Below are positions 26,629 through 64,000 of a stretch of 64,000 bases of DNA, in pieces. Position 1 is the stretch's first letter; each line of letters starts with the position of its first letter. The notes below the pieces were generated by a model. That model worked only from the letters and a program-made list of their open reading frames with translations. It was not told the DNA's origin and did no database searches. The stretch is from contig CM068827.1 of the NCBI GenBank assembly GCA_028554795.2, positions 142,939,251 to 143,003,250 of the forward strand, written 5' to 3'. The DNA is from Sinohyriopsis cumingii (lineage: Eukaryota > Mollusca > Bivalvia > Unionida > Unionidae). Position numbers and translations under genes: made by a program.

Positions 26629-26644
26629 AGTCATACAGAATCTT

Positions 26645-35809: not shown

Positions 35810-36070
35810 TTGCAATTAGGAATCTACCCTAGGCAAAAAGTTCATTCACTGCAATTAGGATTCTACCCTAGGCAAAAAGTTCATTCACTGCAATTAGGAA
35901 TCTACCCTAGGCAAAAAGTTCATTCACTGCAATTAGGAATCTACCCTAGGCAAAAAGTTCATTCACTGCAATAAAGGAATCTACCCTAGGCAAAAAGTTC
36001 ATTCACTGCAATTAGGAATCTACTCTAGGCAAAAAGTTCATTCACTGCAATAAAGGAATCTTTCTTATGC
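35810..36070 (+). repeat. Tandem array, 39-40 bp unit, about 6.5 copies
   Basis: Unit aggcaaaaagttcattcact plus gcaattaggaatctaccct. Two copies carry gcaataaagg (40 bp). Degenerate copies continue to about 36,200. Confidence 0.95.
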
Positions 36071-36307
36071 AAACGTTTTAATTGCAATAAATTAATCTTC
36101 ATTATGTACAAACAAATTTCACTGCAAATAAGAAATTCTCTATGAAAGTTCTTATTGCAATAAAGAAATCATCCCTATGCAAACAGCTTCAATTTCAATA
36201 AACGAGTTATATGACTATAAATTCATATACCTAAATCTAAGAGGTAAAACGAAAATGCAGATTACTTGACGCGCAGTTTCAGGAGTATATCATGTAAAAT
36301 GATAATG

Positions 36308-36458
<151 letters not shown>

Positions 36459-36789
36459 AAGTAATGCCTCGTATTGCTCTAAGGCACTATTTCCGATGCC
36501 AAACAACATAAATCGATTACAAGAATACTGAAAAAGATCACAATTTTGAATCCTTCTTCTATAGTACTGGGAAAGGTACAAAGTAAAAGTGAAGTTTTAT
36601 ATAACATTAGATACAAGTGGACGCCGGTCTATCATTGTTTTCAATCTTACTAATAACTGTAACGTCTATCTTACGTTCCTGTCAATTAACGTCAAGTTGG
36701 TTCAAGTTAATGCGAATCCGTCTAAGATTATAAAAAGCGCGGCAATTAGTGTACACATTAATAAGAAGGTACATATCAGTCATCTTGAG

Positions 36790-37903
36790 TAGTCCTGCAA
36801 TATAAGATATCGACCCTGATATTTATGATTTGGTGGTGGAGGCATTAGAGCCAGAATAACGATTTGACCTTGATTCAAAATTGGTAGCAGCCACGCAAAT
36901 AAGTTCTATTTTTATTTTAAAATGGTTGGTTGTTGTCTAGGTCATGATGGGACAAGGTGATTAAGAAGTAAATATTTTTTACATTTTATTTCTTAGAGTA
37001 AAATGATTGGTTTTCATCAGGGTCATGTCAGGCGTACGTATTATAAACACTATCACGTGACCCCCTTTTTCGATTTCGCAACTTGGGGATTTTCGAAACT
37101 GAGTTTCAGAATATGATATAACCTTCCATTTTAGAGAAATAATCTGAGTTGGGCTATTACACTGGAAAATGACTGTTTTGCCGTTTGGAGTTATTTCAAA
37201 TATCTTGGATTCAAAAGGATTAATTCCTTATTTAACTGGAGATATACGTGTGCTCATAAGAAAATCTTCAACAAAGACAGCTCTTTTAGAACAAATTTCG
37301 GATTTCCGAAACCGGAGTGATATTTCTTGTTTATGCAAGGAATTGTATAGTTCAACACACTACAGGTTACAGAATACGTCATCGTCTTCCATCAATGATT
37401 CTTCGTCGGGACTTGAACTTGAAATAATTAGAACATTTTATTATTAGGACTTCTAAACTTTTATTCGTGGATTATTCTTGAATTAGTTTTGGATTTGATT
37501 CTAAAAACCGTAAGTTCATATTTTTTTCATTTTTACAGTATTTTTCCAGGGTAATAAATTATTATATTTTTCAAAGCTTGTTGTTTTCACTCTTTATTGT
37601 GCTACAGTTTATTCGAGCCTAAACACATAACATAAGAGAAAAAAGGTCCATTTGCTTGTGAGAGAAATTGAATTTATAAGAAAAAAGACATCTGAGAAAG
37701 TAAAGCCTAATAAAACATTATGACTTTAATTTGTAGAAAAGCGACAGTATGGGTTGCCCAGTGTGAGATATTCCTGAAACTTTGATTTCTCGTTACGATC
37801 TTAGTCGCCATCAAAACACGCTACACAGCGCCGTTATTTAGACAGTAAGACCTCTCCCTCCTAAATATAAATATCAGGGTCGAGGTATTACATTGCAGGA
37901 CTA
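36790..37903. mobile_element. TIR DNA transposon, 1,110 bp, TA target-site duplication, non-autonomous
   Basis: The element (36,792-37,901) starts gtcctgcaatataagatatc and its other end, read in reverse complement, starts gtcctgcaatgtaatacctc. Both continue cgaccctgatatttat, giving 35-bp terminal inverted repeats with four mismatches. TA stands directly outside each end. Unit 1 (about 23,180) has the uninserted sequence. A 92-codon frame inside (37,169-37,447) has no transposase motif. TA duplication suggests a Tc1/mariner-like mobiliser, but the TIR is not one I recognise, and other TA-targeting families are possible. Confidence 0.85.
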
Positions 37904-38390
37904 TCATCTTGTGTATATGATGGACGAAGCCTAATCCGTTGCACGTCAAAAGGATACTATAATGAAAGTGGAACGCAAAGCAATATGTATTATAACTATA
38001 TATTATAGCTTAATATTCAACCAGAGTGATGTTTGAGGTCCTCGTAGGTTGCTTTGACTTAGAAATGGCTCGACCACGAGACAGGTGCGTGGAAGTCATT
38101 GACTTACACAGCGAAAATGTCAAGGATCTATACCTGATGTATGTTGCTCTATAACATCATAGACTAGCCATAGTAGCTTTTTGCGTGTCATCATCTTTTG
38201 TATTTTATGCCCAAAGGCTTTTGTGACCGGAACTGATAACGAGGACAGAGACTGTCAGAGAATTCTGGCTTGAGTCTATATTTAAGTTGGATATTCGTAC
38301 AAGACTACATCAAGTCGTTACAAACTGCATACAATTCGCATAAATACCCATGTCGGTAGCTTCCCATGAGTTCGTAGTTCTTAGCTAAGG

Positions 38391-38475
38391 TTTTCGGGTT
38401 GTTTGGGCACCCGTTATACACAGCGCCATGTCTAGTCAGTCTATCATGCGCTGAGAAATGTGTTAAACCAAACAA
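38391..38475 (+). mobile_element. SINE 3'-end remnant predating the duplication
   Basis: ggttttcgggttgtttgggc, then cgccatgtctag, ctatcatgcgctgagaaatg and gttaaacc, follows the 3' domain of the SINE at 10.9 kb. The distal part is also present in unit 1 (25,442-25,480), where the LINE-derived insertion begins inside it. This copy is therefore older than the segmental duplication. Confidence 0.6.
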
Positions 38476-40275
38476 ATATTGTATAATAGTGTTCTATGTA
38501 TGACAATACTAAAGCTGCATCTGAAAGTGTAGGTCTTGCAATATGCGATCTTCAGACCGTCGAATCCCATAGCCTGTAGGTGTTTATTGTCTCGTTAATT
38601 ATGTACGATATCAAGAATTGCCAAATTACTGTACAAGGTTCCAGCTCTAATTATATCGATCTCTACATGAGTTGAGTTGCTGAAAAGTATGTCCTAAGAC
38701 CATGTACAACGTCCCAGTTCCATCCGAGCAGCGTCTGGTGTTAAGCCACAGTATGCAGCTGATAATAATGCTAGAAAATGAAAGCGGATGACACAGTAGT
38801 TGTTCAGTGGAAGTACATATCACTGCGCAATATAGACGTTTAAGCAAGGAAATTGCATGAAACAAATCAGCATTTTTTAAAATTAATTCAGCATTTTTTT
38901 TTGGTCAACATCTGTGGATCTGAGCTGTCGTCAATATAGTTGAAAGTCAAACAGCTGATATCAAGAAAACCATTCTACATGACCACCTGTGTGCCTGAGA
39001 GGACCTTGAAGGTCTTGAAGCTGCAAATAAAAGAAATGAAAAAACGAAGGCGTGTCTATATACGTACATCAAATTAGAGCACTGATGAGGGATCACTCTC
39101 TTGTAGCTCTTCTAACTCGTCAATTGGGAGGCACTACCGCTTGAATGTGATTAACAATATTCATATCTCAGATTTCATATCACAAATACAAATTTCCTAG
39201 ATTTCATATTGCACTAAAATACTAAAAAATGATTTTAGTTTTCCTCGATATGTTAAAACAATAAGTACGCAGACCACATTTTACCGACGCCTTACCACTT
39301 CAATACCAGTAAATTTTGGATTATATTTGCTAAAATTTTAATTTGCAACTATTGCACGCTGAATAAGGTGTACAATCAACACTCTTATTTATTGCAGTAG
39401 ATGTGTATTAAATTGTGAAAGTTAGCAAATATTTGGTATAGGACTATAGGTTACTCATTTGCCAATAGTAACGTTTTAGAATACATGAATGTATGTAGGT
39501 TCAAGTCATGCATATGCAGAAATGGAGTTTCAGGTTCAAAGTTCGCGCAGGTTAGGATGTTTTTCTGTACATGAATTGATAATTCATATTCTCTTTTTTT
39601 CGAAACTAAGTAATAAAAAAAGAGTAAAACTAAGCAAGTTTTGTAAACTTCAACAAATAATTTATTTCGCATGAATACAAAATAAAATTTGAAAAGATCT
39701 TACAGTAATGCGAATTAAATTCCAAAAAGTCCATAAAGTTCTATTTCTATTTATCTAATATTTTTAGAATAATTGTTCCAAGTCAATTACAATCTTGAAA
39801 GTGCTTATGTGCCAATAGCCTGGAAAAGTTTTGACGTGCTAACAGTCTTGATGCATCACAATTGTATCATCCAAAATGTCTCTAAATAAATTCACAATAA
39901 TCCCAAAGTAGTTTTTTAGTCCGAAATTGTGATTGAGCACTTTGTAATTCCAGTGAATATAAATTAATAAATCTTCTCAAATTAAAACTGAACACAAATA
40001 TAAGACTGATTCCACTAGTTCGGATGTTGAATTATGAATGAGTAATTCTAAAAAAAACAACCATAATAAAGAACATAGTCACAATATGAGGATGAGGGTA
40101 ATCCTATTGGAAATTTCAATCAAACTGTAAAAACAATTTCCTTTCTGGGATCTTACAAGTTCAGATTGAAGGCTGTATCTAGAATTCAAAACCAAGTGAA
40201 AAAGTATACCTAGAAATAATAGTATCTTAATATATATTTTACAACCATCTACAACAATTAACTATTTACAGTGCA

Positions 40276-41990
40276 ACAGAAAGAACCGAAACCAACAAAT
40301 CTGAGTTAAGTTTAACAAATGATATTTTCCCTACAAAACAAGGTGAAATCTCAAACTACAGTTACAAATTGTGAAATAAATCTCAAATAATCCCAAAGCT
40401 TTCAAGACAGTGTGTTTTTACTATTTTTATAAAGCTTAGCAAATAAGATTTAGGAGAAAGATTTTGTGCATCATGTCTGGTGGATTATAACACAATAGTT
40501 CCTTCATGTATTTATTAGAAGAAACGGTTAATGGTGGTTTATTAAGACTTGTACAAGCGTTTGAGAAAGTGCATCACCATAAAAACGAAAACTGAATTAT
40601 TCGTCTTAAAAATTTGATGCATCGTGAGTGATTATATATGTGGGTGTTATTTTATTGTACGTTCAATAGCATGTCGGAATCTGTGAATGCTCAGAAGTTT
40701 TTGAGAAAATAAACAGTTCAGTAAACATCATTTTTTTATGACATTTCTGGCCATAAAAAATCACATAATGGTTAAGATTAAAATACATATTTCAATATTT
40801 CATGATTCAATATTTCCTTTTCTCTCATGTTGCCCTGCTTGGTGTGCATTCATTTACATCAATTAAATTTATGCTTCTTCCTAAATGTCTATCGAGCCAT
40901 AGCACATGGATTTCATGTCTGCACAAACAAGTTAAAAATATGCCTGCAGCTTAAAGTACATTCAGTATAGTATGAGTGTAACAACGTCTATATGGAAGAG
41001 CAATTTACTTATTGCGTCGTATATAAATCTAATATATGCCATTTCCCCTGTCTGCACAAACATGTCAAGAAGTAGATAAGCTAGCACTTTGCTTACAAAA
41101 CAGATCTGTCCGACTACACATTTGCGCAAGATTAATTTGTTTTATGGTTACTGAGAACAATTGTAATTTGATATATTTTCATTCAGAATAAAATTATAAG
41201 TATGGCTTGCGTAGACACCAACAAATTTTCAGCTCTGTGTATATCACAAATATGCGCATGTCACTGCAGGATTAATATGAACGGGGTGAATCTTTCCATG
41301 AATGCTCTTTTCTGGGGACGATAGTTCAGCATTTCTATTTGGACAGAGACACGTTATCGCTTGTTGAAGTAGGGCAAGTGTTGCACAGGTATGTTTTCCA
41401 CCTACGTGTGCTGATGTTAGTGAAGGATGGGAAGATATGGACTTCTTATTTATCCATATGATTCAATGGGAAAGTAATGATTCCTTTTGTTATTGCTCAG
41501 TTTCACAATATCGGCATGTATTTTGTTCCATAACGATTTAAAGAGCGCCCCCCCCCCCATGATGAACTAACGGCGACAAGTTTTGCTTTAACTTTGAGAG
41601 ATAAGGGTCAATAGTTTTCCGATATTTAAATAAACCTTGTGAGATAAGGACTAATACTTTTCATATATTTGGATAAATTGATATACTATACATGTGCACA
41701 CGGCACTTTGAAATAAATATTGAACATTAGTCTGTTTCTTTGAATTGTATAATGTATATAACAATATTCAAAGACATGTACATTTCAAATATTTAACAAT
41801 TTCATCAGAATGTATATTTTGTTTTTGTATCTGTTTAGTTTGATTTTATTTTTATTTGCTTATTAGATTGCTGCTAGATTTCTGCTGGAAGCTAAACAGT
41901 AGTTTTGTAAGTTTTCCCACTGCACGATGTTCAGGTTTTTATTACGTATTTTAGTAGCTTGAACGTTGTCCATAATTTTGGTGTTATCAA
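40276..41990. other. AT-rich non-coding stretch
   Basis: No repeat family, RNA or ORF with motifs. A poly-C run lies at about 41,548-41,560. Confidence 0.5.
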
Positions 41991-45100: not shown

Positions 45101-45509
45101 CTGATTCAATCCGATGTATTTCATGTACAATTTTCACAGATGAATCCAGTCCATAATCACTAAATTTCGTAGAATAGACAAAAATACTAAAATCTATTCA
45201 TTCCAGATCAAATGGAAAAGTTGTTGCAATGCGCATTCATATACAATAGGACTCAAAATTTAAATTTTAAGTAGACGAAAACGCCATTTTTTATCGAAAA
45301 TTATGTCTAGGTCGCGACTAAGTTCAAATTTATCTGGGCGGAGTTATGTGTGCATTAATAATGTTGTTGTTGTGTAATGATGAATCTGTGCTTGTGTATT
45401 TATTTTGGAATACGGCATACATTCAATTACTTTGTTTCTTGTAGTGTATTTTATGTATATAAGTAAGTCTTTGGTAGAATAAGAAAATGAGCATATAATA
45501 AAAAGATTT
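42141..45509. other. Non-coding stretch
   Basis: Two short pieces share a phrase, gca(c/t)cgggctcgca (about 42,983 and 43,173), and may be remnants of a dispersed element. Otherwise nothing is recognised. Confidence 0.4.
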
Positions 45510-45623
45510 CTGCATTTGTATGGGAAAATATGAACTTGTTTTGTCGGATAGATATACTGCACTCACAAGGTCGTGCAGCACTCCATCCGAAAAACACGTT
45601 CATATTTTCCCATACAAATGCAG
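45510..45623. repeat. Near-perfect 40-bp inverted repeat with inner stem (long hairpin)
   Basis: Left arm 45,510-45,549 starts ctgcatttgtatgggaaaat. Right arm 45,585-45,623 is its reverse complement, with about three differences including a one-base bulge. The 35-bp loop has its own 6-bp stem, ctgcac/gtgcag (45,557-45,562 and 45,573-45,578). The whole could fold into a 114-nt hairpin. It may be a small foldback MITE or an RNA hairpin; no evidence decides between them. Confidence 0.85.
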
Positions 45624-46398
45624 TGAATAATAAATATTACAGTCAAAATTAATTTCGAGACGTAATATGAAGATCTGCGTTCATGAGGTAGACTCGCAAT
45701 TAAACAGCTTGTATTTAAGTTTCTTACAATATTTAGATATTGTCCTCTTTGGTAATTTTAAGATGTACAAATTCCATGCTTGTAATTTACGTATACCTGT
45801 GAAAATCATTCGCGACATGTCTCGAATAAACGCCAAGGTCACAAATTGTCGAAGTAGATGGTATACTGGAGGCCATATATTGGACAGATAGAATATAAAG
45901 AAGTCGGAATCTCAAGAACTCATAATACTATTTATCCTTTCTCAACAATCTACCTCCTTGGGAATAGTTTTATAAGCTACTGTCTTCTGTTAAAGTTTGT
46001 TTGGGATATATGTCTGTTTATGACATTTGAGAGGAAGTCGGTTATCTCATACTTTTGAACTGTACACGAAATAGGGGGATTATGACCATGTTGTTGAGAA
46101 TACGTGCGATGGAAAAACATCAATAGAGGCGTAGTAAATAGCAGTTTCAAGATAACACGATTTGGAGAGCTACAAAGTTTTCCAAGAAATATGTGTTTAC
46201 GTCGAGCAATCTCGGTTGTTATTCTTACTAGTCCTTGCATATGCTCGCCCATATCCAAGCGAATTTGTTCATTGAATTTCTTAATGTTTTGACAGTGAAA
46301 TACTGAAATTTGTTTACTTCATGGAGGTTTCTCGTTTGAACCGCTTTTCAGTGTCCGTTTGAACAATATTCACTTTTAGCAACCTCTTCATATATAAT
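45624..46398. other. Non-coding stretch
   Basis: Several overlapping ORFs of 62-93 codons on both strands; none has a recognisable motif. Confidence 0.4.
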
Positions 46399-46667
46399 TC
46401 AAACAGTGTTGTTGTTGTAGTGTTTAACGCCATTTTTTCAACACAAGATAGGCTATACATGGCGGCCAGTATAACTGGTGGAGGAAGAACCCGGGAAAAC
46501 TCCGGGAAAAACCACCGACCCACTAGAAACTATTGGCAGGCTTTCTCACATACCCACGTTAGCCGAGTCTGAGACTCGAACCCACGCAGACAGAGGTGAG
46601 ATGGCTGTGATACGGAACGGTGAGCGCTTTAGACCACTCGGATACTCGGGCCCCCCTCAAACAGTGT
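46399..46667 (-). mobile_element. tRNA-derived SINE, minus strand, with 11-bp target-site duplication
   Basis: Body about 46,410-46,656. Read on the minus strand it has the A-box region gtggtctaaagcgctc, B-box ggttcgagtc, ccgccatgtatagcctat and a tail seen here as gttgttgttg. The flanks are tcaaacagtgt on both sides, exactly. It belongs to the same family as the 10.9 kb copy and is well preserved. Confidence 0.95.
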
Positions 46668-47937
46668 AATGTGGAGATTCAGCAGAGTTTTAGAGTTTTA
46701 TACTTATATTTCGTAACAAATCAATCAATCTATCGATCGATCATCTGTTTCCTGAATTAAAGTTGATAGGTCACTAACATACTCGGGCATACCCACCCAC
46801 CCACCCACCCACATACATACACACACACATGAGCTGGGTACCACGAACAATTTTACCACGGTATAAAGCAGCTGTATTAGCGAGGGACCAACAATTTAAT
46901 CTTTTGGGGCTGGAACCTGACATTCTTTTAAATTTCATTTCACCCTGTCCATATCTGGAAGAAACATCTTGCTATGATGTATAGCCAAATAACACCATAT
47001 TACATCCGTTATATTAATTGGATAAAAACAGTAAATATCTTGAGATAAAGCAAATGATATTAATACATCTCAGCTCCAAATTAAAGTAAAGCGCCCTCCC
47101 CCACCGCCGGGAAAAGTAATTGGTCAGAACCTCATATAGATGAATTTGAAGAGGTATAATATTAAACAAATTCCAATACAAGCACCGGATAAAGCTCCGG
47201 ATTCTCATTGGTTCGCTGGAAGTTGACTGGCCAAGCCGCGTACTTACAAGACGCTAAAAGAAAAAAATGTATAGAAACGTGTAGGAGAGGAAACCACAAC
47301 GATCTCATGGTAATTATTTTTAACCAAAGTCTTGTCTGTCCAGATTATTGACTGATCTGCACCTTAGCTGTCATCAAGAAACTTCCAGATGAAACTTATC
47401 TACCGCTGTCGACTGTTACAATTGTGGCAGAAATAGGCACAAAAAAGAGTGTCAGATTTAATCATCACAATATAGGGTAGTATGAATTTTGTTTTATCAC
47501 ATGCACAACTTTCATTGTGACATTACAGCATAATAAATTCAATCCGGAATGTACTTTATCACACCTTTAGGTTCATATCGTCCAAAAGTATACTTTAACA
47601 TAGATTTTGAATACACAACTTCTCAGAAATCACTCTGCTCCACTTCATCATAATTGATATAAAATATTCTAACACAGTAGGTCTTTCAGATTGTACGATG
47701 TTGTCTATGTGCCTTTATACAGACCATTTTTTCAAAAAGGATATAATTATATAAACAGCTCAATCAATTGAATTTTTGAGAGCATCTCATTATTTCAGAT
47801 TTCTTTGCTAACTTCACCTGCAGTTTGTGTTAAAATTTATATTAGGTGTGCAGACTCAACTACGGTGACAAAATTAAGTAGAAGAGGACACCTTTTATGA
47901 GAATATATGATCATTTTGCCTTGTCAGATTCCTGAAA
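46668..47937. other. Non-coding stretch upstream of the decayed gene
   Basis: Holds a short (accc)n/(acat)n tract (46,791-46,826). No promoter element could be assigned with confidence. Confidence 0.5.
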
Positions 47938-49123
47938 ATGTCTGCTAGTGGAGACAAGTATTCCAAGGTAAGTTTGTTTTAATACTTGATGTTAATTTGT
48001 CATGCATTTCATTGAGTATATAGGCCAAGTGTGTCTAGGGTATCTTTATAAATTCACGCCATTCAAATTCTTTCATTGAGAAAAAGTAATGATTTCTACT
48101 GCATTTTTGCAACCCTAATCATTAGGTCATTTCTTTGAGCATTCTAATTATAACACCTTGTAACATATTTTATTGTTCAAAAGTTGTTGCATTTAATTCT
48201 GTTTTAAAAATAGGTTAGTATATGTATTGGTATCATGTGTTTAACATACTAGAACTTATGAGTGCAGTAGAGTCTCTTTGTTTTGAAAGAGATCCTTTCA
48301 GCAAAGAATTCAGTAAAGAATGCATTGTCAGGTAGGATGGGTAAAATCCCTCACTAAAAGAGCTGTGGGGTGCTGAAAACAATTTGTAAATTAGTTGGAG
48401 ATGAAACTTTCTAATATATTTATAACATGGTTTTTGTATGTATAATTTTATTTTTTTAATAATTGAAAACAAAATATAATACACTGATCAGCGATACTGT
48501 TTGCTCTTTTCCGAAACTTTGCTTTATTTATGGTTACATTTTTGGTCATTAAGTAATTACTATACAATCTCTCTTGAGCAAATGTCAACATTGGGAAAAT
48601 TCATTTAGCTGGTTAAGGCAGGTGCTGTGTCAGTGAAGTTTAAATGGAGAGAAAAGCAAATCAGACCCTGGATGAAGATGAAAGGATTATCCTTGAGGCA
48701 GGTGGTCATTATGCAGGTGTGGACTGTATATTTTCATTTCTGGTCTTCAGCCATACAATATTCTATTTTGTTCAGTGGAAAATGGTACGAGACTGAATCA
48801 TAAGATTAAATGTTGAATGGCATATAAAGTATATGACTTAATGAACAAATACACATGTGACTTTCACATAATAATAGCTGAGCCCATCTATGAAGATTCT
48901 GTTTTGTCAGATGCATCATAACTTTGTTTCATTTTTAGCCTGTGCAGTACAAATGTAGAACAGAGTTATACAGAGATCCTATCTTTCTTGGTGGCACTGT
49001 CCCATACAGCCTTGACAAAATTCCTATGAGGAGGAGACCTGTTCATGTTAAGAGGGAGACAATATCTCCACATGGAACTAGAATACACAATTCAGAATTA
49101 TCAACCATATTGGAACCGTCTCT

Positions 49124-49228
<105 letters not shown>

Positions 49229-49455
49229 TCTATTGTTTAATGGCTCAGAAATGTTGCAGTCGTTAATTAAGTTCATCTGAACATGTTGCATGTGCTTTCG
49301 TTGACTCACTTGATTTTCTTTTCTTCTTAATTATTCATAACAGAGGTGAGTGTCAGGAATTCCAGTCCTTTGGACACACATAATTTATTTTTCCGAATAT
49401 TTGCTTATTCATCATTTTATCCTTTACATGCTTGAGCCATATGATTTGTTAAATT

Positions 49456-49695
49456 AAATTTATATGTAACATTTTACAAGATCATTTTCAGACCTTTATC
49501 TTAGGAGACATATCTAAATTTATATGTAACACTTTACAAAATCATTTTCAGACCTTTATCTTAGGAGACATATCTAAATTTATATGTAACACTTTACAAA
49601 ATCATTTTCAGACCTTTATCTTAGGAGACATATCTAAATTTATATGTAACACTTTACAAGATTATTTTCAGACCTTTATCTTAGGAGACATACAT
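49456..49695 (+). repeat. 60-bp tandem repeat x4 spanning a splice acceptor and exon start
   Basis: Exact 60-bp period; the copies begin at 49,456, 49,516, 49,576 and 49,636. Each carries aaatttatatgtaacacttt, then atcattttcag (acceptor), then acctttatcttaggagacat (exon start). Four equivalent acceptors are thus available. Reading through the middle copies stays open and in frame (20 residues each, e.g. TFILGDISKF), so use of an upstream acceptor would lengthen the protein by multiples of 20 residues. Confidence 0.95.
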
Positions 49696-49940
49696 ATTGC
49701 ACCAGATGGAGAAGATGAAGGATGCTTTTACTGGCACACATTAAAACATGAACAAGCATATCAATAATTGAACGACAGAATGGAAGTTTTTGCAGTGGCT
49801 GGATGGGATGACAGTAACAATACTCTAAAATTAGGTTTTACTCCTAGAATATCGGATGAATTTCATTGTTCTTTGTGCAAAATAAAACTTTGAAATATTG
49901 TTTATTTGATTTGAACTATTTTACTTTTTTTCCAAAAATG

Positions 49941-49941
<1 letters not shown>

Positions 49942-50036
<95 letters not shown>
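49942..50036. repeat. (TA)n followed by poly-T
   Basis: About 39 ta units, then a 17-base T run. Confidence 0.97.
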
Positions 50037-50085
50037 CTTCAAAAAGGATTACAATTTAGTCAGATTTGATACTGTATTTGTGATA

Positions 50086-50333
50086 GGGGCCTCAGGTGTC
50101 CAAGTGGTCTGAAGTGCTCACCTTTACAGATCACTATTTTCTCACCTCTCTCTGCATGGTGTTGAGTCTTGCGCCCTGTCTTTGTGATTATGTGAGAAAG
50201 ATGCCACTATTTTTTCTGGGCTGGTGGTCCTTACTGGGATTCTCCTGGATTCTTCCTCCATCAGTTATACTGGTCGCCATGTCTGTCCTCTCTTGCACAA
50301 GGAAATGGTGTTGAACACAAAACAGCAACACAG
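50086..50333 (+). mobile_element. Old diverged SINE of the 10.9 kb family
   Basis: ggggcctcaggtgtccaagt, ggtctgaagtgctcacc, then cttcctccatcagttatact and ggtcgccatg. Heavily mutated, mostly at CpG and by C-to-T changes. Tail aacagcaacac. No target-site duplication is detectable. It lies in a large intron of the decayed gene. Confidence 0.85.
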
Positions 50334-50339
50334 AGTGAC

Positions 50340-51215
50340 ATCTGGCAACAACGATAGGTTAAATGACTCAATATTTTATGATGCGAAGAAACAAATACAG
50401 ATCTGGTATCTCTCATTCCCATGACATTTTTCTCGAAAACTTGTGTAGATTACAAGTTCAATACACATGTAAAAAAGGCCATAAAAGTATGCACTTTTCT
50501 CGAAAAGAAAATTATGCCATTATGAGGTTCCATGATTACTATTAAATCTTTAAATATATATATACATTTACCCCAGTACTGATAAAATGACTTTTACTGG
50601 TCAAGTAAACAAATATTTAGAATTAAATATTACAATAAACCTGATTCGAAACACTACAGTATAATACATTAAATATAAGATACTTGTAAACATATGTAAT
50701 TATTGTTGCATTTTGTTAACATAATGTAATACATTTAATTTGTTGTGCCTACATATAAACGATCAGAATTCGTAGTAAAATAAATTCAGTTTCTTACAAT
50801 TTTATTCATGAAAATACCATAAATTAATTAGTTAATGAATCTAATATTTCTTAGGTAATACTGAGTCCTTAAGGACTGTAGCATTGAAAACTATAAATGA
50901 TGATATTTTTGTTTTGTTTATTACATGAAGCTTATATAAGGATAAAAACACACAGACTGATGAAGTATTTTCATTTTATTATCCTGAACTGTAACATTGT
51001 AAGATCTTGAATTAAGTCCAGTTCTGTTAAACTCATTACATGCATTGTGTTAGGACTGGTTTCCAAATACTGACTTTATTACTTTAAGATATAGAGTCTT
51101 TGCATCCACCCTGCATCCATATCAATGCTTTGAGACCTGTGTTTCATGAACTACCAGTTTATATAAGTTGAAGCACAGAAGGTAATTAACAGTAAACTTT
51201 TGTTGAAATTGTAAA
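50340..51215. other. AT-rich intronic stretch
   Basis: No exon-like frame or repeat signature recognised between the two SINEs. Confidence 0.5.
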
Positions 51216-51216
51216 T

Positions 51217-51479
51217 AAGGTTCTGGAACCCTGAGTAGCAAAGTGGTCTAAAGTATTCACTGTTACATCTCACCTCTTTTCTGTGTGGGTCTGAGTCTCG
51301 GGCTTGGCCAACGCAGGTACACGAAAAAGTTTCTAAGTAGCTTCTTAGCGGATGGTGGATCTTCCAGGTGTTCTCCAGGTTCATCTGCAAGAGTTGTACT
51401 GGCTGCCATGTATAGCCTATCATTTGCTGAAAAATGGCGTTAAACGCCATAACAAAATTGAAAACAACAAAGAAGGCTC
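51217..51479 (+). mobile_element. Diverged SINE of the 10.9 kb family
   Basis: Body about 51,225-51,471: ccctgagtagcaaagtggtc, taaagtattcactgttac, then ggctgccatgtatagcctat and aatggcgttaaacgcc. Imperfect flanks aaggttct / aaggctct may be the decayed target-site duplication. Part of the tRNA-like head is deleted. Confidence 0.85.
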
Positions 51480-52555
51480 TAAATACAACGATTAACAATG
51501 CATAAGTTGTTTCTTATTCTTCACCTCACCATTATACCAGCCTTAATGTAAAATAATTTTCTTGTTTGTCTAATGTCTTTTATTCATTGTTCATTATAAT
51601 ATTTCAAATTGTCTTTTTATGCAAATAAATTTACTTCATATTATATTCCTCGCGTGTTTTTAGGTTCATGCATAATTTATTATTCTTTTCACAGTTAGTC
51701 ATAATTTGTTCCCTTTGTTCATTAATGGAGGCTATCTATAACATTATTCATTTTTGTTCATTAACTTTATCTGTACATCAGTGTTAAAATATTGTATTTT
51801 AACAGATTGAAAGAAAGCTAAACATGACTTCTTTGTAACCAGAAAGATCAATGTCCAAAATACTTTGATCGAGTTTACCAATTGTGCATTATGTTTTGTC
51901 ACATACGAACCAATTATGATACTGTTCTTTGTAGAGTACGGATCTCTTGGTCTTGGTACTTGCTTGGTTATCAACACTGAATTATGTAGGTGAAAAAGTA
52001 ACATTTCATGGCATATTCCTAAAAGAAGCTCTTTGAGTATATCTTAGCTACTGCCATTTAGTACTCATTTTACAGCTATCTTAGTTTTACAGTCTATATA
52101 ATTATCACATGAGTATTATATTATTTAGTTCTAAGTTTGGATCTGGAATATGTCTCAAAACACCCCATGATGTCACAATTGACATGGTAATGTTATGTAC
52201 ACCAAATATGTAATGTCTGGCTTTTGTGTATTATATCAAAGTCTTTTTACGAAACTGGTTTTTCGTCATGTCACAAATATGTAGAAGATATTAGCTTGAA
52301 ATCTGTTAATAATCGATATATTTCACTTAAGTTATTCACCCATGAGATGTAATATAACTGTTATTCAATCATTGCAAGCAAAGTTACTTTTTATTTTATT
52401 CTCAAACAAATTGGCTAGCAAGGTTTATTATGTAACGAATTGAAAGAGCAGGCTTTTAACTTGATGTCCATGGTTTTTGTTTTTGTTCTGCTTTGTTTTG
52501 TGATTTTTCGTACAGAAAATATAAACAGTCATATAATTTTCCTTCCCAATTCAAA
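51480..52555. other. AT-rich intronic stretch
   Basis: An 86-codon minus-strand ORF (51,744-52,004) has no motif. No repeat or RNA seen. Confidence 0.4.
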
Positions 52556-52559
52556 GAAA

Positions 52560-52662
52560 TATGGCACATAAACAACAACAAATACTTCACTTCATGTTGG
52601 ATTTGAACTTTGAAAGACCAACTTTTGACAGGTGTCCATCAATACCACTTGGCCATGTAAGT
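52560..52662 (-). mobile_element. tRNA-like SINE fragment, minus strand
   Basis: The reverse complement reads tggccaagtggtattgatgg (A-box-like) and, about 40 bp on, aaagttcaaatcc (B-box-like), followed by an aagtgaagt and gttgttgtt stretch. The spacing fits a tRNA promoter. The cloverleaf is not well conserved, so it is a SINE or tRNA-pseudogene piece and not a functional tRNA. Confidence 0.5.
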
Positions 52663-53130
52663 ATCTAAGAGTAACTTTGAATTTTGAGTTTATCTTCTTA
52701 TCGACATGGCAGTGAAATAATCGCAATTGACTCCAGTGAATTATCACAGTTATTCTGCATGAAACATTCAGTACCCCACAGCCTATTATAACATAGACCC
52801 TTATGTTTGGTTTTGTTTCAGTTGAAATGTATGAATATTATTGAACAGTTTCAGTCACTAGGTTGCCAATACTCACAAAAAATTGAAACTATTCAACTCA
52901 TTAGATAACATTTATTTGACACTGATACGTTTGTAACATTCTCTATATATGCTGTCAGATGAACATGCTTACTTTTAGAAGTCCTTCAGAGAATCAGATG
53001 TAGGTATTTGTCATTAAACTGCTAATTATGTGTGAACAGCTTTGAAAAAAAATCATACCAAACACTCATATTGAATATGAAATGAAAAGCAGTGTTCTAA
53101 TTCATATTCTAATTTGACGATGCTTGTTTG

Positions 53131-53403
53131 AAAACGTGAAAGAAGGGCCCCGAGTGGCCGAGTGGTCTAAAGCGCTTTCCGTTACGGATCACTGCCATCT
53201 CACCTCTGTCTGCGTCGGTTCGAGTCTCGGATTCGGCTAATGTGGTTATGTGAGAAAGCTTGCCAGTAGCTTATCGTGGGTCGGTGGTTCTTTCCGGGGG
53301 TTTTCCGGGTTCTTCCTCCACCAGTAATACTGGCCGCCATGTATAGCCTATCTTGTGCTGAGAAATGGCGTTAAACCCTACAACAACAACAAAACGTGAA
53401 AGA
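53131..53403 (+). mobile_element. tRNA-derived SINE with 13-bp target-site duplication
   Basis: Body 53,144-53,390: gtggccgagtggtctaaagc, ggttcgagtctcgg, ccgccatgtatagcctatct, gcgttaaaccct, (aac)n. Exact 13-bp flanks aaaacgtgaaaga. One of the youngest-looking copies; it lies in an intron just upstream of the first KDZ-like exon. Confidence 0.96.
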
Positions 53404-53923
53404 CATGTAAGATAGATGTTCTAAGGCTGTTCTTTAATAGTACCAATTAGTTAGGACCAATGTACATATAAATAATTTGGTTATGAAAACAAAAGCAGGT
53501 TGAAGCCTTCATATGTTTGGAAATTCTGAAAGCCGAATTACATAGTCATTTACAGAAAGCAAGATGTTGATATTGGGCTAACTGTAGCTTTACTTTATAA
53601 GATGATGTCATTAATGTTAAACCACAATTGGGCAATAGAGACAGTTCCAATGTTGTAACTAACTCACCATGGGCCCCACAGCAAACTTTTTGTACTGGCT
53701 CCCCTCCTTTACTGTCAATTAATTGTTTCTTATTTGGGCTGGGCCCCCAGGACGAATGGTCCCAACAGCATGACCGTACCTGCTGCCACTGCAATTACAC
53801 TACTGGACAGTTCTTAGTATCTTATATCACAATGACCTTAGAAACATTCAGTTTTTCATTTTATTGTTATCAATCTATTTTAGATTGTGCTCAATTCCAG
53901 ATTGTGATGGGAAGCTTCCGTAT

Positions 53924-54127
53924 GATGGGAAAACTGAATGTGTACTCAATATGGGACGATTTCTTGTACATTATGATGGGCAAACTGAATGTGTACTCAA
54001 TATGGGACGATTTCTTGTACATTATGATGGGCAAACTGAATGTGTACTCAGTATGGGACGATTTCTTGTACATTATGATGGGCAAACTGAATGTGTACTC
54101 AATATGGAACGATTCCTTGTACATTAT
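53924..54127 (+). repeat. 51-bp in-frame tandem repeat x4 inside a coding exon
   Basis: Copies start at 53,924, 53,975, 54,026 and 54,077, each 51 bp (17 codons: DGQTECVLNMGRFLVHY; the first has DGKTE). Differences between copies are few (AAT/AGT, GGA/GAA, TTT/TCC). Related proteins, as I recall them, have this segment once, so three extra copies add 51 residues without shifting the frame. Confidence 0.95.
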
Positions 54128-54715
54128 GATGTGTTGAGAGATTTCATGTTCCAGTTTATTTATGTTGCATTTTACAGTGTGTGGGCTTTGCATCATCAGG
54201 ATGTTGAAAATGTTGACTTTTGTAAAAAGTTTCCATGCACATTCTTTAGATTTAGTTTAATTTCATTTCTTGTTTGGTTTTCATTTCTTGGTCTGCTAGA
54301 TGTCAGCTATGACGATGGCTTCATATGCATGAATCACATGTGTAGGAGATCACCAAAGGTTTTAATATGGGATGGCACTTCACCGGATTACAGAAAGGTT
54401 CATGTCAATTACCCGGATGATACTGGACTCATTTTATCTGGCAGATGAGTATCACATAGTTGGGGAAAATTTAAGTAACATGCTAATTCTTATTGGGATG
54501 TATAACATTGATCATTTTAAACAAAACACCTAAAAAATATCACAGCCTCTAATTCAGCTTATAGTATAATGTTACAATATTATTGACAAGAAATAAAATA
54601 TTGAAGAGGTATATTTTTCATCATTTCTGTTATGCATTAATCATTATACCCTTCTTAGATCTCATTAGTAGCAGATATATTCTATTTATTATCACTGTAA
54701 TATCGTATAAATAGA

Positions 54716-54895
54716 GAGCCATAGTAGCTCAGTTTTTTAAGTTGGGTTCTTGTAATCCAAGGGTCATGTGTTTCATTACCTGCTCAGGCCAGACTGGGTT
54801 TGGAGCATCTGTATGTCCTTATTAAAGGTATTTTGCTCCCATTTCCTCTGCACAATATAGCCATTAACATGATACAAGTGCCATAACAAAAATAT
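54716..54895 (+). mobile_element. tRNA-derived SINE fragment (third family)
   Basis: The stretch agccatagtagctcagtttt with ttcttgtaatccaagggtca and a degenerate B-box (gtgtttcattacc) has tRNA-like order and spacing. It is followed by a non-tRNA body and an A-rich end. The D- and T-arms no longer pair well, so it is not a functional tRNA. Confidence 0.6.
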
Positions 54896-57548
54896 AAAAT
54901 ATTTATTAACCCTCTTAATGTTATATATTGCAATGAGACGTATCTTAGAAAAAGAAGATTCCAGATCCACAGATTTGTTAAAGTTCACAGTTATTTCTAT
55001 TTTTTTCTTAATTGTCTGTGCACAAGTATTTAATTTTTATGACAAATTTATAGTTTCCAATTATACTTTTATACATAAATGAATTAAATGTATGAAGAGA
55101 ACTAAAAATTGTAAGTAGATATGTCTTTTTCTTTCCTGCCACATCTCTGAAGTTACAGTTATATGAACTGCATAATATTTTGGGGAAATTTCATTATTGG
55201 TGTAGATTGATAAATATGCCCTGTCATTTTGACCCTTCATTCATTTATCATGGCCTATTTACTCATAAATTGGGTATAGGAATATTTGCATCTTGATTGC
55301 ATTGATTGGATCAATTATCTCCTTTGCAGCAAGCTCGCATACTAACCAGATGTATATGTATTCTGGTCAAGGGAATAGGCCCTAATTCGTATGCAAATTA
55401 AATGTCGCACTGACATGTACTTTCTGCCACTTGATATGTTATGAAGTAGCATACATGTCGATGTCCAGATTTTACAGTTTGAACAAAATACTGTTTTTAC
55501 AGACTCCATTTGTATCGTAATATTCACAAGGATAGGGTATTCATTGACAGTAAACCAAACCACGGAAATGTTTTCAGCTATGTGAAAGGAAATTTAGAGG
55601 ACATTGATACCATGAAGTCCTTGCATGTAAAACATCAGCCCTCATTGCTTCCAGACATAGAGTACTTTGGGCAAATATGTTTGTTTAAGTAACTATATTT
55701 AGCACAAACAGTTTTGTATCATTTGCAACAATTCATTAAAATACAATTGGTTACATGTTCACTGCACCGATTTAAATTCAAGAATTGCCACAAAATCATT
55801 CTTTCTGACTTACTAAAGTTTTGTATGTCACATTTATTTCTATTTATATTGTGTCCAGAACACTAAATTATTGGATTCAATTTGGTTTGATTGTGCCCTT
55901 ATTCATAGAAAATTGTATACTATACGCCAGTGTTGCCAATTTTTTTAATGTTTAGTATATATCCAGCAATTCACAATAGATGAGGCTATTTAGAAAGTCA
56001 TATAAATTTATTTTTAATGCCTCCGCTGCATTGATCGCTATCAATGAACAAAATTAGGACGACACTAGTGGTGATACAACATTTTCATTGGTTTATGGTA
56101 AAATTGATGACATTTACTTGTCCCTGTCTGATTTAGAAGTTTGCTTTGATGACAAAATTTTAAGTATGTGTTATGTTAAATATGTTTTGTTTAGCAGACA
56201 AAGCTAATAAAAATGTAATCTTACCATTTTTTCACAGGAAGCACTGATAAATGCCCTGATGAATATTCAAAACTGACGAAGCTGCTGTCCAGCCCATCCC
56301 CTGTATGTGGCACTTTTCATTATACTTATACTGATTTGTCAGAGAAAATATTGACAAAGAAAAGATAACTTTGCCACAGATGAAGGTGCTCCAAGAACAC
56401 TCTCCCGTGCTCTTTGATATGCTGCAAACTATAGATGACATTCCTTCATTTCTGAAAACAGCACTGAGGGAGATAATCTGCAAGGTCAAGACAACTTTTG
56501 AAGATTGCAAGGGTCAGGATACAGGACCTCCAACTGGACCTGCATCCAGAGATGCCTTTTACCCAGCTCTGTCAGAACTGTGTAGGAGGGGAAAATATCA
56601 GCTGGATGGCAAGAAAGGAGAGGTACCATTTTGCAGCAAGAAACACAAAAGGCACATGCTTCTGTTATATAAGCGCCCGCAGTTTTTGTAATCTATCCAT
56701 ATTTTGTTAACACCATAATCTGTCCAATTTGTAATGTGCTGGGTTTTTGCCCCAGGTTTTTGGTATTGGTTCCAGATCATGAAATCGATGGAGTCACCAA
56801 ATATTCCATTCACATTCCTTAAAACAAGATTTGAAGGTTCTTAGCCATTCTGGTTATACATTTTGTTTTCAATCTTTGATGTTTAAGATACATACTTTTC
56901 TTAACAAGGTTGGACTTTGTTGTGTCTTTGTTGTATCTGAAAATTGGAATGTTTTATTAAGAGTTTTTGATTACATATCCCACCAACAGGAGCAAAAGTT
57001 ATTTAAATTACATTGGCCATAATTAAAATTTATTACAATTGGACAAGCTTATAAGAAAACGGGCTTTAATTATGTTGAAAATACAATATGCTTTAGTTTG
57101 TTTAACAATATAATTCATTTATATGTGCGTTTACTAATGCTAAGAAATTATGGTATCACAGTCAATAAGGTAAATTAAACAATAAAAAAGCATGATGAAT
57201 GTATCTTTCCTTGGCGTCATTATTTTATGTTGTTTTTGTTTCATTTGCTCCAGAGGCAGTAATTTATGAAAATGCCTGCAACTTGCATGCTTACTGTCTC
57301 AATAGAGATCCTGTTTTCTTTGCAAGGACACAGTTTGAAGTTGATGCTTTGCATTGGTTTAACCATACATACTGGCAATGCATTTTTACCTGTATGTTAC
57401 TGCAATTGTATGTTCTTCATTCTGATTTTGCTCATGTATTGATGATTTTTAGGGTTGGAAACTATTAATTGCATCACTATGTAAATGCATATCATTTAGT
57501 TATATTCCTTCACATGACCTAATATGAACAACACATGTTTTTTTAGTT

Positions 57549-57818
57549 GTTTCGAATGGTGTTGTTGCTGTGGGGTTTTAACGCCATTTTTCAGCACATG
57601 ATAGGCTATGCATGGCGGCCAGTATTAATGGTGGAGGAAGAACCCAGGAAAACCCCTGGAAGAACCAACGACCCAAGAGAAGCTACTGGCAAGCTTTCTC
57701 ACATACCCACATTAGCCGAATCCTAGACTCGAACCCACGCAGACAAAGGTGAGATGGCAGTGATCCGTAACGGAGAGAGCTTTAGACCACATGGCCACTC
57801 GGGGCCCCGTTTCGAATG
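57549..57818 (-). mobile_element. tRNA-derived SINE, minus strand, with 10-bp target-site duplication
   Basis: Body 57,559-57,808. On the minus strand: ggggccccgagtggccatgt, ggtctaaagctctc, ggttcgagtc, ccgccatgcatagcctatca and a tail seen as gttgttgctg. Exact flanks gtttcgaatg. It lies between the last two exons of the decayed gene. Confidence 0.95.
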
Positions 57819-58614
57819 TAGTTTTAGTTGCGATTATGTTGTTGATTATAAGAACTAGTTTCATACTTACTTTAGTGTACATAGTTGTCACCAAAGTTTT
57901 TCAAAAGTTGGTAAGATTGCCATCATCTTCAAAATAAGTTGTATAACATTAAATCTGGATGTATCATTATTTTGTATGTTAAAATCTTTTAAATTTGCAA
58001 CTACTGGTAACAATAAACTTTGCCATGTTTTTTTATTTTTTTCACATTGTGCTGGCATTGTAACAGTTATTTGCAAGGTGTTTAATTTGTTTGCAATAAT
58101 ATCATGAGAAAAGAGCATCATGGGATATCCATTTGAGCACTCTCCTCAATGTTCATTTTGGTACACTTTTCAGTTAAAAATTAATGGTCCCTGACTGATT
58201 GAAAATCCTGTGTCTTACTGTTAAGAAAAAAATTGTCAACTTTTAATTTTATATTTCTAAGGTAATTGTTTGCTGCAATTTGTTTCCAACTTTCAGTACA
58301 TTTATAAGCATACTTACTACCATTTTTAATTTTATTTATCAAATATGAGAAATATCTTTTTATCAGAATATTTTTTAAATAAACATTTTTGTTTCTTATA
58401 TTTTAAAAGGTTAGAGCTTCATTTGCATATTTCAGGCTGCTCCATGGGATATGAGTCAAAACTGTATCCCAAGTTCAAAAGTGTCAAAACCTAGATTGTG
58501 GGACAAGATAATTCCAAGTTGAAGAAGCTGAACGCCTCGCTGTCATACATGACTCAACACAATGTTCATGCATTTCTTCCTATGGACCTGCAACAAGGAA
58601 ATGAAAGCTCGTAA

Positions 58615-59666
58615 TTAATTTTGTTTAAATATAAGAGGGCAAAAGATGATTATACCGAATCTGAATTAAAATATGACTAAAACGCAAATTTCAGTTTACA
58701 AAACTTATTTCATTCTTATTCATATTTTTTAAGTTGTTCCAACAGTCGGCATTAGTGACATTTTCAATGATCAAAATTTTACAAAGGATTATTATTTACA
58801 GTGTACTGAGAAACTTGTAGCTCAGAAAAATGTACTGATTTGTATTGTAATATTCTTCACTTTCACAAATAAGGGTCCGTTCTTTTGGCATTTTATAGAG
58901 AGAAACAAAGATATGTGATTCATGTGTGCATGTGTTATAAGCAGATGTTTTAGTGCAAAATAGTTTAGTTGAGATATCAAATTTATAATGATGTATATGT
59001 AATGTTTTATGAAAGCCATCATTGCTGGAGAGATGTGTATAATGGCTGTCTTTTCCTATGTATATACAGGAATGTGCATGTGGTCAGTTTCATCTGGTCT
59101 AACATTTTTTCTCAGAGGTTTTGTTCTTTGTATAGTCGTTAGCATGAAATTGAATGTAGTACAAGTTTTCAAATATGAAACATATAAATGGCACACATTT
59201 CCTTTGCCTTTCACAGTTGTCGGTGTAATTATGTCAAATCTAGTCATTGTACATGGCACATGCGGTCCATCCTCATATTTTTCCAGATTAATTTATCTGC
59301 ATTGAGTCAGTGCGACAACTGGTTTTAATGATATTAGCATGTCAGTAGACTCCAAGTTTGTTTATTATTATGGTGATTGCCTTCTGAACTCTGTTTTGTA
59401 AGATATGTATTGCCATAGTGTATGCACCTTCTGTGTTGCAATTATTTAATTAAAAGCTATAAAATATATAAAATACAAACCAGTTTGAATTGGTTGTTAT
59501 TCGTTATATTTTCATCTATATTACTATCTATCCCTCCCTTCTCTTTCTATGTTCAGGAAATATTTGCCAATATTTTGAGAAAGTTTTTTCATGATGTGAC
59601 ATAAAGGGGTCATAAAAAGGACTTTAAAATTATGTGAAGGTTTCATTTCCTATAATTATACAAAAC
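58615..59666. other. Non-coding stretch downstream of the decayed gene
   Basis: A 98-codon + strand frame (59,009-59,305) is hydrophobic in places but shows no motif or splice context. The two strands are open together over much of it, which argues for chance. Confidence 0.4.
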
Positions 59667-59795
59667 CGCTCTGGTGGCCTAGTGGTTAGAGCGTCCGCCT
59701 CGGATGCGGGAGGCCGAATCATAGACTTATAAAAATGGCTGCCTCGCTTGGAGCTTAGCATTAGAAGGTTAGTGTTAGGACTGATCGACCTTATA
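59667..59795 (+). mobile_element. Second SINE family, 3'-truncated copy
   Basis: ccgctctggtggcctagtgg and ttagagcgtccgcctcggat form the A-box region. Then ctgcctcgcttggagcttag and ggttagtgttaggactgatc match the copy at 19,050. The B-box region is deleted and the 3' half is missing. Confidence 0.75.
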
Positions 59796-60048
59796 AAATG
59801 TTTCCCAAATCACAATACTTAGTAATTTTTCATTTTTAATTAACAAGAAAGCAGCAGAATAAAGATTAGGAAACACAGAATTCCAAAACAAGTATTATAC
59901 AGTTATATGGTTATATAATGAACAGGCATGTATGGAATTAAATAGAATTTTAGTTCTAAAATTAAAAATTAGGCATGCATTTATTTCTGGAGGAAAACAA
60001 TTTTGACCTTGAAAACTGTTCTGACATAAATTCAACTGAGACACACCA

Positions 60049-60280
60049 ATATATACCCAGCTTCACCATGCTATCACTATTTCACATTTCACAAATATAT
60101 ACCCAGCTTCACCATGCTATCATTATTTCACATTTCACAAATATATACCCAGCTTCACCATGCTATCTCTATTTCACATTTCACAAATATATACCCAGCT
60201 TCACCACGATATCACTATTTCACATTTCACAAATACATACACAGCTTCACCATGCTATCACTATTTCACATTTCGCAAGT
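60049..60280 (+). repeat. 46-bp tandem repeat, about 5 copies
   Basis: Unit atatacccagcttcaccatg plus ctatcactatttcacatttcacaaat, exact 46-bp period in the first copies. As 46 is not a multiple of three, the peptide changes frame each copy. Not coding. Confidence 0.95.
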
Positions 60281-60289
60281 TGCAGTGAC

Positions 60290-60980
60290 AATAAGAAAGA
60301 AATAATTAAATAATAAATAAAAAATAACAAATAATTAATTAATTAATTTTTGTATCACTCTCTGGAAAAATGTAGTAGTCAAGACACTTGTTGCTAGCTA
60401 CATCAAATACTAGTACGTAGCCCAACCCAACCACTCTCCAGCCATCACACACCTTAAAAACAATTGTATTTTGCTGTTAATCTGGCCTCTTCTTGCAGTA
60501 TGAATGTTAACAATTCTTCTGGATTGTCGGCATCTGGACATTTCTGCCGCACTTCTGGGCAGAAGTTCTCAAGCAGCATCCTCACATCATCAACTGAGAT
60601 GAGCTAAGAAACAAGGAAAGAAAGATAAAATGCATTAGTACATATGTATCTATTGATAAAACTTTACATAAATGTATAGTTATATTACTTGATCATTGTG
60701 ATAAAAAAAAAATTGCATCAAGAACATGTTTCATTCACACAAAAAATAATGAATGCAATGTGCCACAGATATAGGAAGTGAAGTGCTGGTCTGAACATGA
60801 TTCAATACAATGGCTTGTTAAAACGCAGCAGACAAAGATGAGCAGAGCTCGCTCATCAGGGAATTATTTTTTCCAGCATCAACAAGTTGAAATAAGTTAG
60901 CTGAAACATAATAAAGGTGTAATTCTTGTAGAAACAGACATGTAAAGGTTTGCAAACATAACCGTATTCCTAAACGTTAA
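60290..60980. other. Non-coding stretch before the Tigger element
   Basis: The block 60,480-60,605 (ctggcctcttcttgcagtat to gatgagctaag) is less AT-rich and could be a small minus-strand exon, but its frame shows no recognisable motif. Confidence 0.35.
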
Positions 60981-61145
60981 TTTGCTCCGTTAATCAAGAA
61001 ATCCGCGTTCCGGATCCGGAAATCAAAATCGGGGACCAAAGTGTAAAATTACATTAAAACTTGTCTCGATAATCCGGAAATAATCTGTCCAAAAATAAGA
61101 AAATTCGAAAAATCGTATGTGAAAATACAATCAGAAGAATAATAC

Positions 61146-61194
61146 ATAAAACACAGTAGTGAAGCCCTTGAGAATCTGTGGCCACTATCAATAA
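61146..61194 (+). repeat. Duplicated scrap of transposase C-terminal coding DNA in the left flank
   Basis: aaaacacagtagtgaagccc, then ttgagaatctgtggccacta, matches 63,042-63,085 of the transposase gene in the same orientation (about 85-90%). It probably comes from an internally deleted relative that is nested in or fused to the left side. Confidence 0.85.
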
Positions 61195-61570
61195 CTAAGT
61201 AGCTTAACCATATTGTAACCAGCGATTGTATAAACAATGTCTGTTTTAGCTAGTCGCCGACGGGGGTGTTAATAATTAAATAAACACACTGGGATCAAAT
61301 CGTCCACGCTTTTTGACATAACATATGGTAAATAAATTAAAAGTGTCATTAAGCCTCTTTGTTGTTTACCAATTGTATGTAACAAATACAGTTGACATTT
61401 CTAAGCTGTGGACAGTATAGGGCTTCATTTTCGAATAAAATGGGGACGTCAATCATTAGCAACTGTAAAATACGACTTATAAAAATGACTGCATTTTATT
61501 AGTTTACCATTACGCATTTAACTGGGAGATAACAGTTAGTATTCGTTGTACTTTTTACATATATTATATT

Positions 61571-63158
61571 ATGGCGACACCATCAAGCAAGCGCAGACGA
61601 GTAGAGATACGGCCAGCATAAAAAAGAAGATTTGCCAGCACAAAGAAGATCACCCAAAAGCTACAGTTCAAGATATACGCCAGCATATTATAGCTTACTA
61701 TTCCTTAGACATTGGCATGTCGACAGTTGCGGACATTATAAAAAACAAGGACAAATGATTGTCCGTACCTGCCGACTCAGCAGACCTAACCCGCGCTCGC
61801 CATGCCAAATATCAACAAGTCGATGATGCCGTATTCATGTGGTTCTCAGACATGTTGGCCCACCACGCCGCCGTCAACGATGAAATGCTCATTGCCAAAG
61901 CAAAGATACTCAGAGACCAACTCGGCACCACTGACTTTGCCTATTCTCATGGATGGCTACAACGCTTCAAGAATCGGCGGGGCATCAAACGCAAATTGAG
62001 GGAGAAGCAGAGAGTGCCGACATGAACAAAGTGCAGGCCGGCAGAGAAGAACTAAAGCGACTACTGCAAGACTACGACCCACAAAACATATTCAACCTGG
62101 ACGAAACTGGATTGTTTTTCCGACTGGGGCCAAACCACAGTTTAGCAACCCACAACATTAAAGGCCAAAAAAAGTCAAAGGATAGGATCACCGTGACACT
62201 CACTGCGAACGCAACAGGGACCATCAAATTGAAACCATTTGTCATAACTAAGGTCAACAGACCTAGGTGTTTTGGCAAAACATATAATCCAGACACATAT
62301 GTGAGATACAGACACAACCGCAAAGCTTGGATGACGGCAGAACTTTTCATCGACTGGTTGAATGAATTCGATAAACAGATGAGGGTAGCCAAACGCAACG
62401 TCATCTTACTTGTAGACAACGCTGCAAGCCACACACAAGGGGACGTTCGATTAAGCAACGTAAAACTACACTTCCTTCCGGCAAATACAACGACACACAT
62501 TCAGCCAATGGACGATGGCATAATACGTGCATTCAAGGCCCACTACAAGAAACAACTGGTTAGACATTACATTGACTGTGCTGAGCAAGGCAAGGTTCAA
62601 ACTGTGGACATTAGGCAGGCAATACACATGGTAATGACAGCGTGGGGTTCAGTAACACCAACAACAATCTCAAACTGCTTTAGACATGTACAGATCATAC
62701 CGACAATAACCACTAATGTCGAAGATATTGATGACGGAGATGACATGCCATTAAGTGAGCTCAGAGATCTAATAAGAAGCCTTCCCACCGAGACTGAGAT
62801 GTCTGCCGAGGAATTCGTACGGATAGACGAAAAGGAAGAGAAAGGGCAACAACTCAACGATGACGACATTTTGACTCTGGTATCTAAAGATGAGGTTCCA
62901 GACAATGATAACGAAGAAGACGATGATGACACTACCGACCCCGAGGGAAAAGACATTACCATCAACCAAGCCAAGGACAGTATAGCAACATTAATTTCGT
63001 ATTTTGAGCAGACGTCAGCAAATTTCACCAGTGATGACATAAAACACAATAGCGAAGCCCTTGACAATCTATGGCCACTATCAGTAATCATTGCAGATAG
63101 ATCCGCCAAAGAATCCAGGCAAACAAAGGTTACAGACTTCTTCAGGAAATTGACATAA
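61571..63158 (+). pseudogene. Tigger/pogo-family transposase (DDE superfamily), three lesions
   Basis: Starts MATPSSKRRRVEIRPA (61,571). An indel near 61,612 moves the frame to KKKICQHKEDHPKATVQDI (psq/CENP-B-like DNA-binding HTH). A TGA at 61,756 sits where Trp is expected (NKDK*LSVPAD). The second HTH (CENP-B type) follows, with HAKYQQVDDAVFMWF and SHGWLQRFKNRRGIK. A second indel near 62,000 leads into the catalytic domain, open to 63,158: NLDETGLF (Asp at about 62,100), ILLVDNAASH (about 62,415), HIQPMDDG (about 62,511), a DDD triad with about 31 residues between the last two. The C-terminal tail is acidic (NEEDDDDTTDPEG) and ends VTDFFRKLT. Mobilises its own element by binding the terminal repeats. 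The catalytic domain is fully open, so decay is recent. Confidence 0.9.
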
Positions 63159-63425
63159 TAAATGTATGTACAGTACATACATGTACATGAACATAGTGTG
63201 ATGTGTTAATTGTCCAAACTTCTGTTTACTGTATATGTACGTACAAGCACATGTTATAATAATGTGAAATAAACACAAATTAATAGATGTATTCATTAAT
63301 TTATTTTCACTCATTATTGAATATACAGTACATTATATTTAAAGCTAGCATATACATGTACATATATACGGTGTGATGATATCGTAAAATAAAAAATATG
63401 CATGATTCAATTATCCGGAAAACTC

Positions 63426-63470
63426 GTTAATCCGGACATATTCGCTGGGAACGAATGTGTCTGGATTAAC
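63426..63470. repeat. Palindrome within the Tigger right end
   Basis: gttaatccggacatattcg (63,426-63,444) and cgaatgtgtctggattaac (63,452-63,470) are inverted copies with two mismatches and a 7-bp spacer, so the terminal motif occurs in both orientations inside one end. Confidence 0.9.
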
Positions 63471-63485
63471 GAGGCTCCACTGTAT

Positions 63486-64000
<515 letters not shown>

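Follow-up and report, generated by a model that had tools for sequence, protein, structure and literature searches.

The locus described here lies in the window, by which we mean the whole 64,000-nucleotide stretch of Sinohyriopsis cumingii DNA that was analyzed. It consists of five forward-strand pieces, E1 to E5, that follow one another in order between positions 53884 and 58614 (Table 1). This layout comes from our reading of the open reading frames (ORFs) and the underlying sequence, and it bears out the five ordered exons of the original prediction. The original prediction did not mention the tandem array inside E1; such arrays are common in the window (44 rows listed, with overlapping rows and dinucleotide runs included). 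The small gene or pseudogene upstream of the locus gave weak Pfam matches only, and those over the cut-off fall in the stretch of its 60-bp repeat. We considered its exons (47.9-49.9 kb) as a 5' part of the KDZ-like gene and found no support for this arrangement; the terminal stop adjoins AATAAA.

Table 1. Positions of E1 to E5, of features within or next to them, and of other features of the window.
Feature	Position	Strand	Description
E1	53884..54444	+	Open piece with CSIPDCDGKLPYDG..., VLIWDGTSPDYRK; phase 2 at its 3' end
51-bp tandem array inside E1	53921..54131	+	4.1 copies, 96% matches, in frame, 17-aa unit
E2	55503..about 55689	+	RLHLYRNIHKDRVFID...; acceptor TTTTTACAG/A
E3	56238..56836	+	Frame change, 2 in-frame stops, GT at 56837 in phase 1
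E4	57254..about 57391	+	AVIYENACNLHAYCLNRDPVFFARTQFEVDALHWFNHT...; acceptor in phase 1
E5	58436..58614	+	GCSMGYESKLYPKFKSVKT, stop 58492-58494, then IVGQDNSKLKKLNASLSYM... up to stop 58612-58614
ATTAAA, possible poly(A) signal 3' of E5	58665..58670	+	Hexamer match only
Small separate gene or pseudogene	47939-49893	+	Later part HIAPDGEDEGCFYWHT...; ends beside AATAAA
60-bp tandem array	49455-49692	+	4.0 copies, 97% matches; TTTTCAG acceptor-like site in every unit
Pogo/Tigger-like transposase	61759-63158	+	HTH_Tnp_Tc5 (E 1.5e-15) and an overlapping 407-aa ORF in another frame with DDE_1 (E 2.5e-44)
SINE-like repeat, seven copies	10919-11176, 25518-25774, 46398-46655, 50085-50338, 51229-51455, 53138-53392, 57551-57812	both	About 71-92% identical
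Segmental duplication	about 14200-28600 versus 28800-40300		Tandem, partly rearranged; pieces about 69-98% identical

Splice phases, worked out by hand from the sequence, agree at two of the junctions. E1 ends in phase 2, in agreement with the acceptor of E2, and the 3' junction of E3 at 56836/56837 (GAAG/GTTCTT, phase 1) is compatible with the acceptor of E4 (CTCCAG/AG), likewise in phase 1. The interior of E3 is broken. It begins after TTTTTTCACAG in a frame (start 56237) that runs into a stop at 56366-56368. Since a second frame opens at 56335, one frame change is needed between 56335 and 56365. This second frame meets in-frame stops at 56689-56691 and 56716-56718, continues past both as GFWYWFQIMKSMESPNIPFTFLKTRFE, reads ...CWVFAPGFWYWFQIMKSMESPNIPFTFLKTRFEG beyond them, and reaches 56836. 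Hence, the end of E3 at 56688, as first proposed, gives way to one at 56836 with a phase-1 GT.

The 3' end of E1 is AG followed by ATGAGT, without a GT donor. With three stops, one frame change, and this missing donor, the locus would yield no full protein, and the stops, frame change, and damaged donor that had been described for it are all present. We also weighed whether a functional gene with other exon boundaries might have been misread through an assembly error or unusual splicing. Repeat-rich DNA is prone to assembly errors. There is no GT directly after ...HWFNHT, where E4 presumably ends, and a GTATGT donor at 57392, also in phase 1, joins E4 to E5 in frame. Against a functional gene stand the stops within E3 and E5, the lost donor of E1, and the three GTs noticed toward the end of E2, each of which, as worked out by hand, reaches E3 only with a stop or a frame change. 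We consider such a gene highly improbable.

The lengths of the open pieces are within chance and are not significant. In 300 Markov-1 copies of 53801-58700 (forward strand), an ORF of at least 118 aa occurred in 12.7% of copies, one of at least 105 aa in 27%, one of at least 89 aa in 57%, and one of at least 71 aa in 93%. These figures fit a reading in which E1 to E5 are unrelated open stretches and any likeness to a KDZ transposase arose by chance from the way frames and joins were chosen. The evidence that bears on this reading comes mainly from comparison with Pfam, where the KDZ transposase family (PF18758) has a profile length of 217 and a curated cut-off of 26.6 bits.

The join of E4 to E5 had PF18758 as its sole listed Pfam match, at 13.5 bits (E 0.061) over profile positions 120-215 of 217. 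Joining the two pieces at HT/GCS gave 14.6 bits (E 0.027), and placing the tail of E3 before them gave 15.4 bits; with more of E3, the scores were 15.6 and 15.1 bits and the match extended from profile position 92-93 to 215. PF18758 was listed for eight of the 15 queries in which E4 precedes E5. The other seven comprise two whole read-throughs, four queries truncated at SLSYM, and one joined via the GTATGT donor, where the extension of E4 abolished the match. Single exons gave no KDZ match against Pfam (for E1, no Pfam family at cut-off), nor did E1 and E2 together, E3 alone, or the whole read-throughs, the last perhaps because of the length correction.

This comparison led to three further observations. 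First, the match depends on order: none of the eight shuffled, reversed, or reordered queries listed KDZ, including both reordered ones. Second, scrambled sequence can also match something: in one set of five scrambled queries, two hit unrelated families (E 0.0032 and 0.063). Third, the favored-frame tail of E3, at 15.4 bits, was surpassed by prefixes taken from the two wrong frames (16.3 and 17.3 bits), while a reversed prefix reached 13.6 bits. We therefore rejected the tail of E3 as independent KDZ support, since wrong-frame prefixes score higher. We likewise set aside the finding that a motif pattern occurs once in the window, which is circular because the pattern was built partly from E4 itself.

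No query reached 26.6 bits; the top score was 15.6 in the favored frames and 17.3 overall, the latter with a wrong-frame prefix. Because the score lies under the cut-off, formal membership of the KDZ family is not established. The strength of the match comes instead from the family having been named beforehand and from the dependence on order. What stands of the proposed KDZ-like identity is an order-dependent match of E4 and E5 that is colinear with the C-terminal half of the domain, disappears on reordering, and stays below the cut-off throughout; judged by content, it exceeds chance, though weakly. The chance reading can point to scores that are all under the cut-off and sensitive to join details, and to the weak family matches of scrambled queries. 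It has to contend with a family named in advance, for which E 0.061 over 24736 models corresponds to about 2.5e-6 for a single model (before the choice of frame and join), with a match lost in both reordered queries, and with two junctions that agree in phase. We regard chance as quite improbable.

The original prediction had expected acidic residues lost from the YENAC and NSKLKKL regions, a catalytic loss that the motifs do not confirm: YENAC retains a glutamate, which is acidic, and the stretch in E5 reads VGQDNSKLKKL. We take intact relatives to read YDNACNLH at the position of YENAC. In animals, genes with the annotation HMG domain-containing protein 3-like carry motifs of the Y[DE]NACNLH and SLSYMTQ type, and E1 to E5 may be HMGXB3-like, as the original prediction had it. 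Neither NACNLH nor SLSYMTQ appeared among the literature matches listed, and the same holds for the phrases 'HMG domain-containing protein 3' and 'KDZ transposase'.

We searched for the ends of an element as 8-bp duplications beside 20-base arms, comparing 45500-53880 with 58614-64000 with simple repeats masked. The best pair of terminal inverted repeats (TIRs) with a target-site duplication (TSD) matched at 12 of 20 arm bases, against maxima of 11-15 in 60 Markov-1 copies; hence, the flanking TIRs for which a check had been suggested yielded no pair above chance between these two spans. Left unmasked, the search returned AT repeats as its six best 8-bp TSD pairs. TSDs of 7 bp, tried only together with inverted arms, gave 13 of 20 at best, and 40 Markov copies reached up to 15. 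The ends of an element at this locus may have decayed or may lie outside the searched span.

Repeat copies at 53145-53378 and 57574-57807 were examined as TIRs and rejected; the second sits between E4 and E5, and more copies lie elsewhere. By eye, the SINE-like repeat of Table 1 has a tRNA-like head, and no tRNA was called in it. The pogo/Tigger-like transposase downstream of the locus is far better kept than the KDZ relic and is perhaps frame-shifted.

We looked for second copies in the window by tblastn (E up to 1), using as queries E2, E3, the tail of E3, E4, E5, and the second half of E1. None of these has one there; apart from the queries at their own positions, the search yielded only three matches, all short and weak (best E 0.087). 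No relative turned up in viral contigs or prokaryote genome contigs; an animal gene would hardly be expected there, and this result carries little weight.

These results bear on whether the locus descends from a host gene, that is, a domesticated KDZ-derived gene of the HMGXB3 type, or its duplicate, that was dying and became pseudogenized in this lineage. Such a gene would fit with a single copy in the window, with the failure to find a TIR/TSD pair in the two spans compared, and with splice phases that are still partly coherent. However, old transposon copies lose their ends as well. In Pristionchus, putative Zisupton elements show terminal inverted repeats without detected target-site duplications (PMC9297572). 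The scan of 55 of the 81 window ORFs of at least 80 aa listed no HMG box at E 0.01. Introns, for their part, do not tell a host gene from a transposon. A dying host gene is, in our judgment, less likely than a dead transposase gene copy. The narrower proposal of a lineage-specific, once-domesticated host gene of KDZ origin, still multi-exonic and currently undergoing loss, seems to us doubtful.

The original prediction had assumed that introns were either acquired by a transposon or the mark of a host gene. This premise is unsound. The putative Zisupton elements of Pristionchus are described as multi-exonic, with 18 and 31 exons in the two families covered, and as up to about 1400 aa long and superficially like ordinary genes (PMC9297572). 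Because descriptions of KDZ superfamily elements include many introns, finding introns in a member of this superfamily does not attest to domestication. As a methodological point, the presence of introns cannot label a KDZ copy as domesticated.

We favor, at a probability of about 0.6, the reading that the locus is a pseudogene, the decayed copy of a KDZ-like transposase gene with multiple exons, whose ancestor was a mobile element. In this model, E1 to E5 would be the 3' part of a transposase gene of the Kyakuja-Dileera-Zisupton type, which would have been inherited from a transposon copy, with introns that belonged to the element itself. DDE transposases work by cut-and-paste with an RNase H-fold DDE nuclease, and the ancestor presumably moved its DNA in this way. 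The pieces, the order in which they lie, the disabling changes, and the weak KDZ match are direct observations, from which we infer mobile-element rather than host-gene ancestry.

Animal genomes commonly contain dead transposase genes, and the locus is most likely ordinary genomic debris, a transposase-derived pseudogene of a known kind. Should relatives carry an intact orthologue at the syntenic position, the time at which a domesticated gene was lost would follow from this locus. Were it formerly a domesticated host gene, relatives with an intact copy would reveal the role of the domesticated protein.

Related elements and genes offer several points of comparison. Enrichment of the KDZ domain has been reported for Crassostrea gigas (PMC10546077). 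In fishes, cysteine-cluster domains of Zisupton are reported fused to F-box genes, which serves here as precedent only (PMC12062965). According to PMC12730594, Zisupton DNA transposons have TIRs with 8-bp target-site duplications, whereas Kyakuja DNA transposons have a 7-bp TSD, CA..TG ends, and no TIR. The locus differs from HMGXB3-type genes in that the scan of 55 window ORFs listed no HMG box, and it would share with them the motif series Y[DE]NACNLH/SLSYMTQ. Set against Zisupton/KDZ elements, it scores under the threshold, lacks an open frame, and showed neither element ends nor the N-terminal half of the domain; its likeness to them is that of a multi-exonic transposase gene in which E4 followed by E5 matches the C-terminal half of the PF18758 profile.
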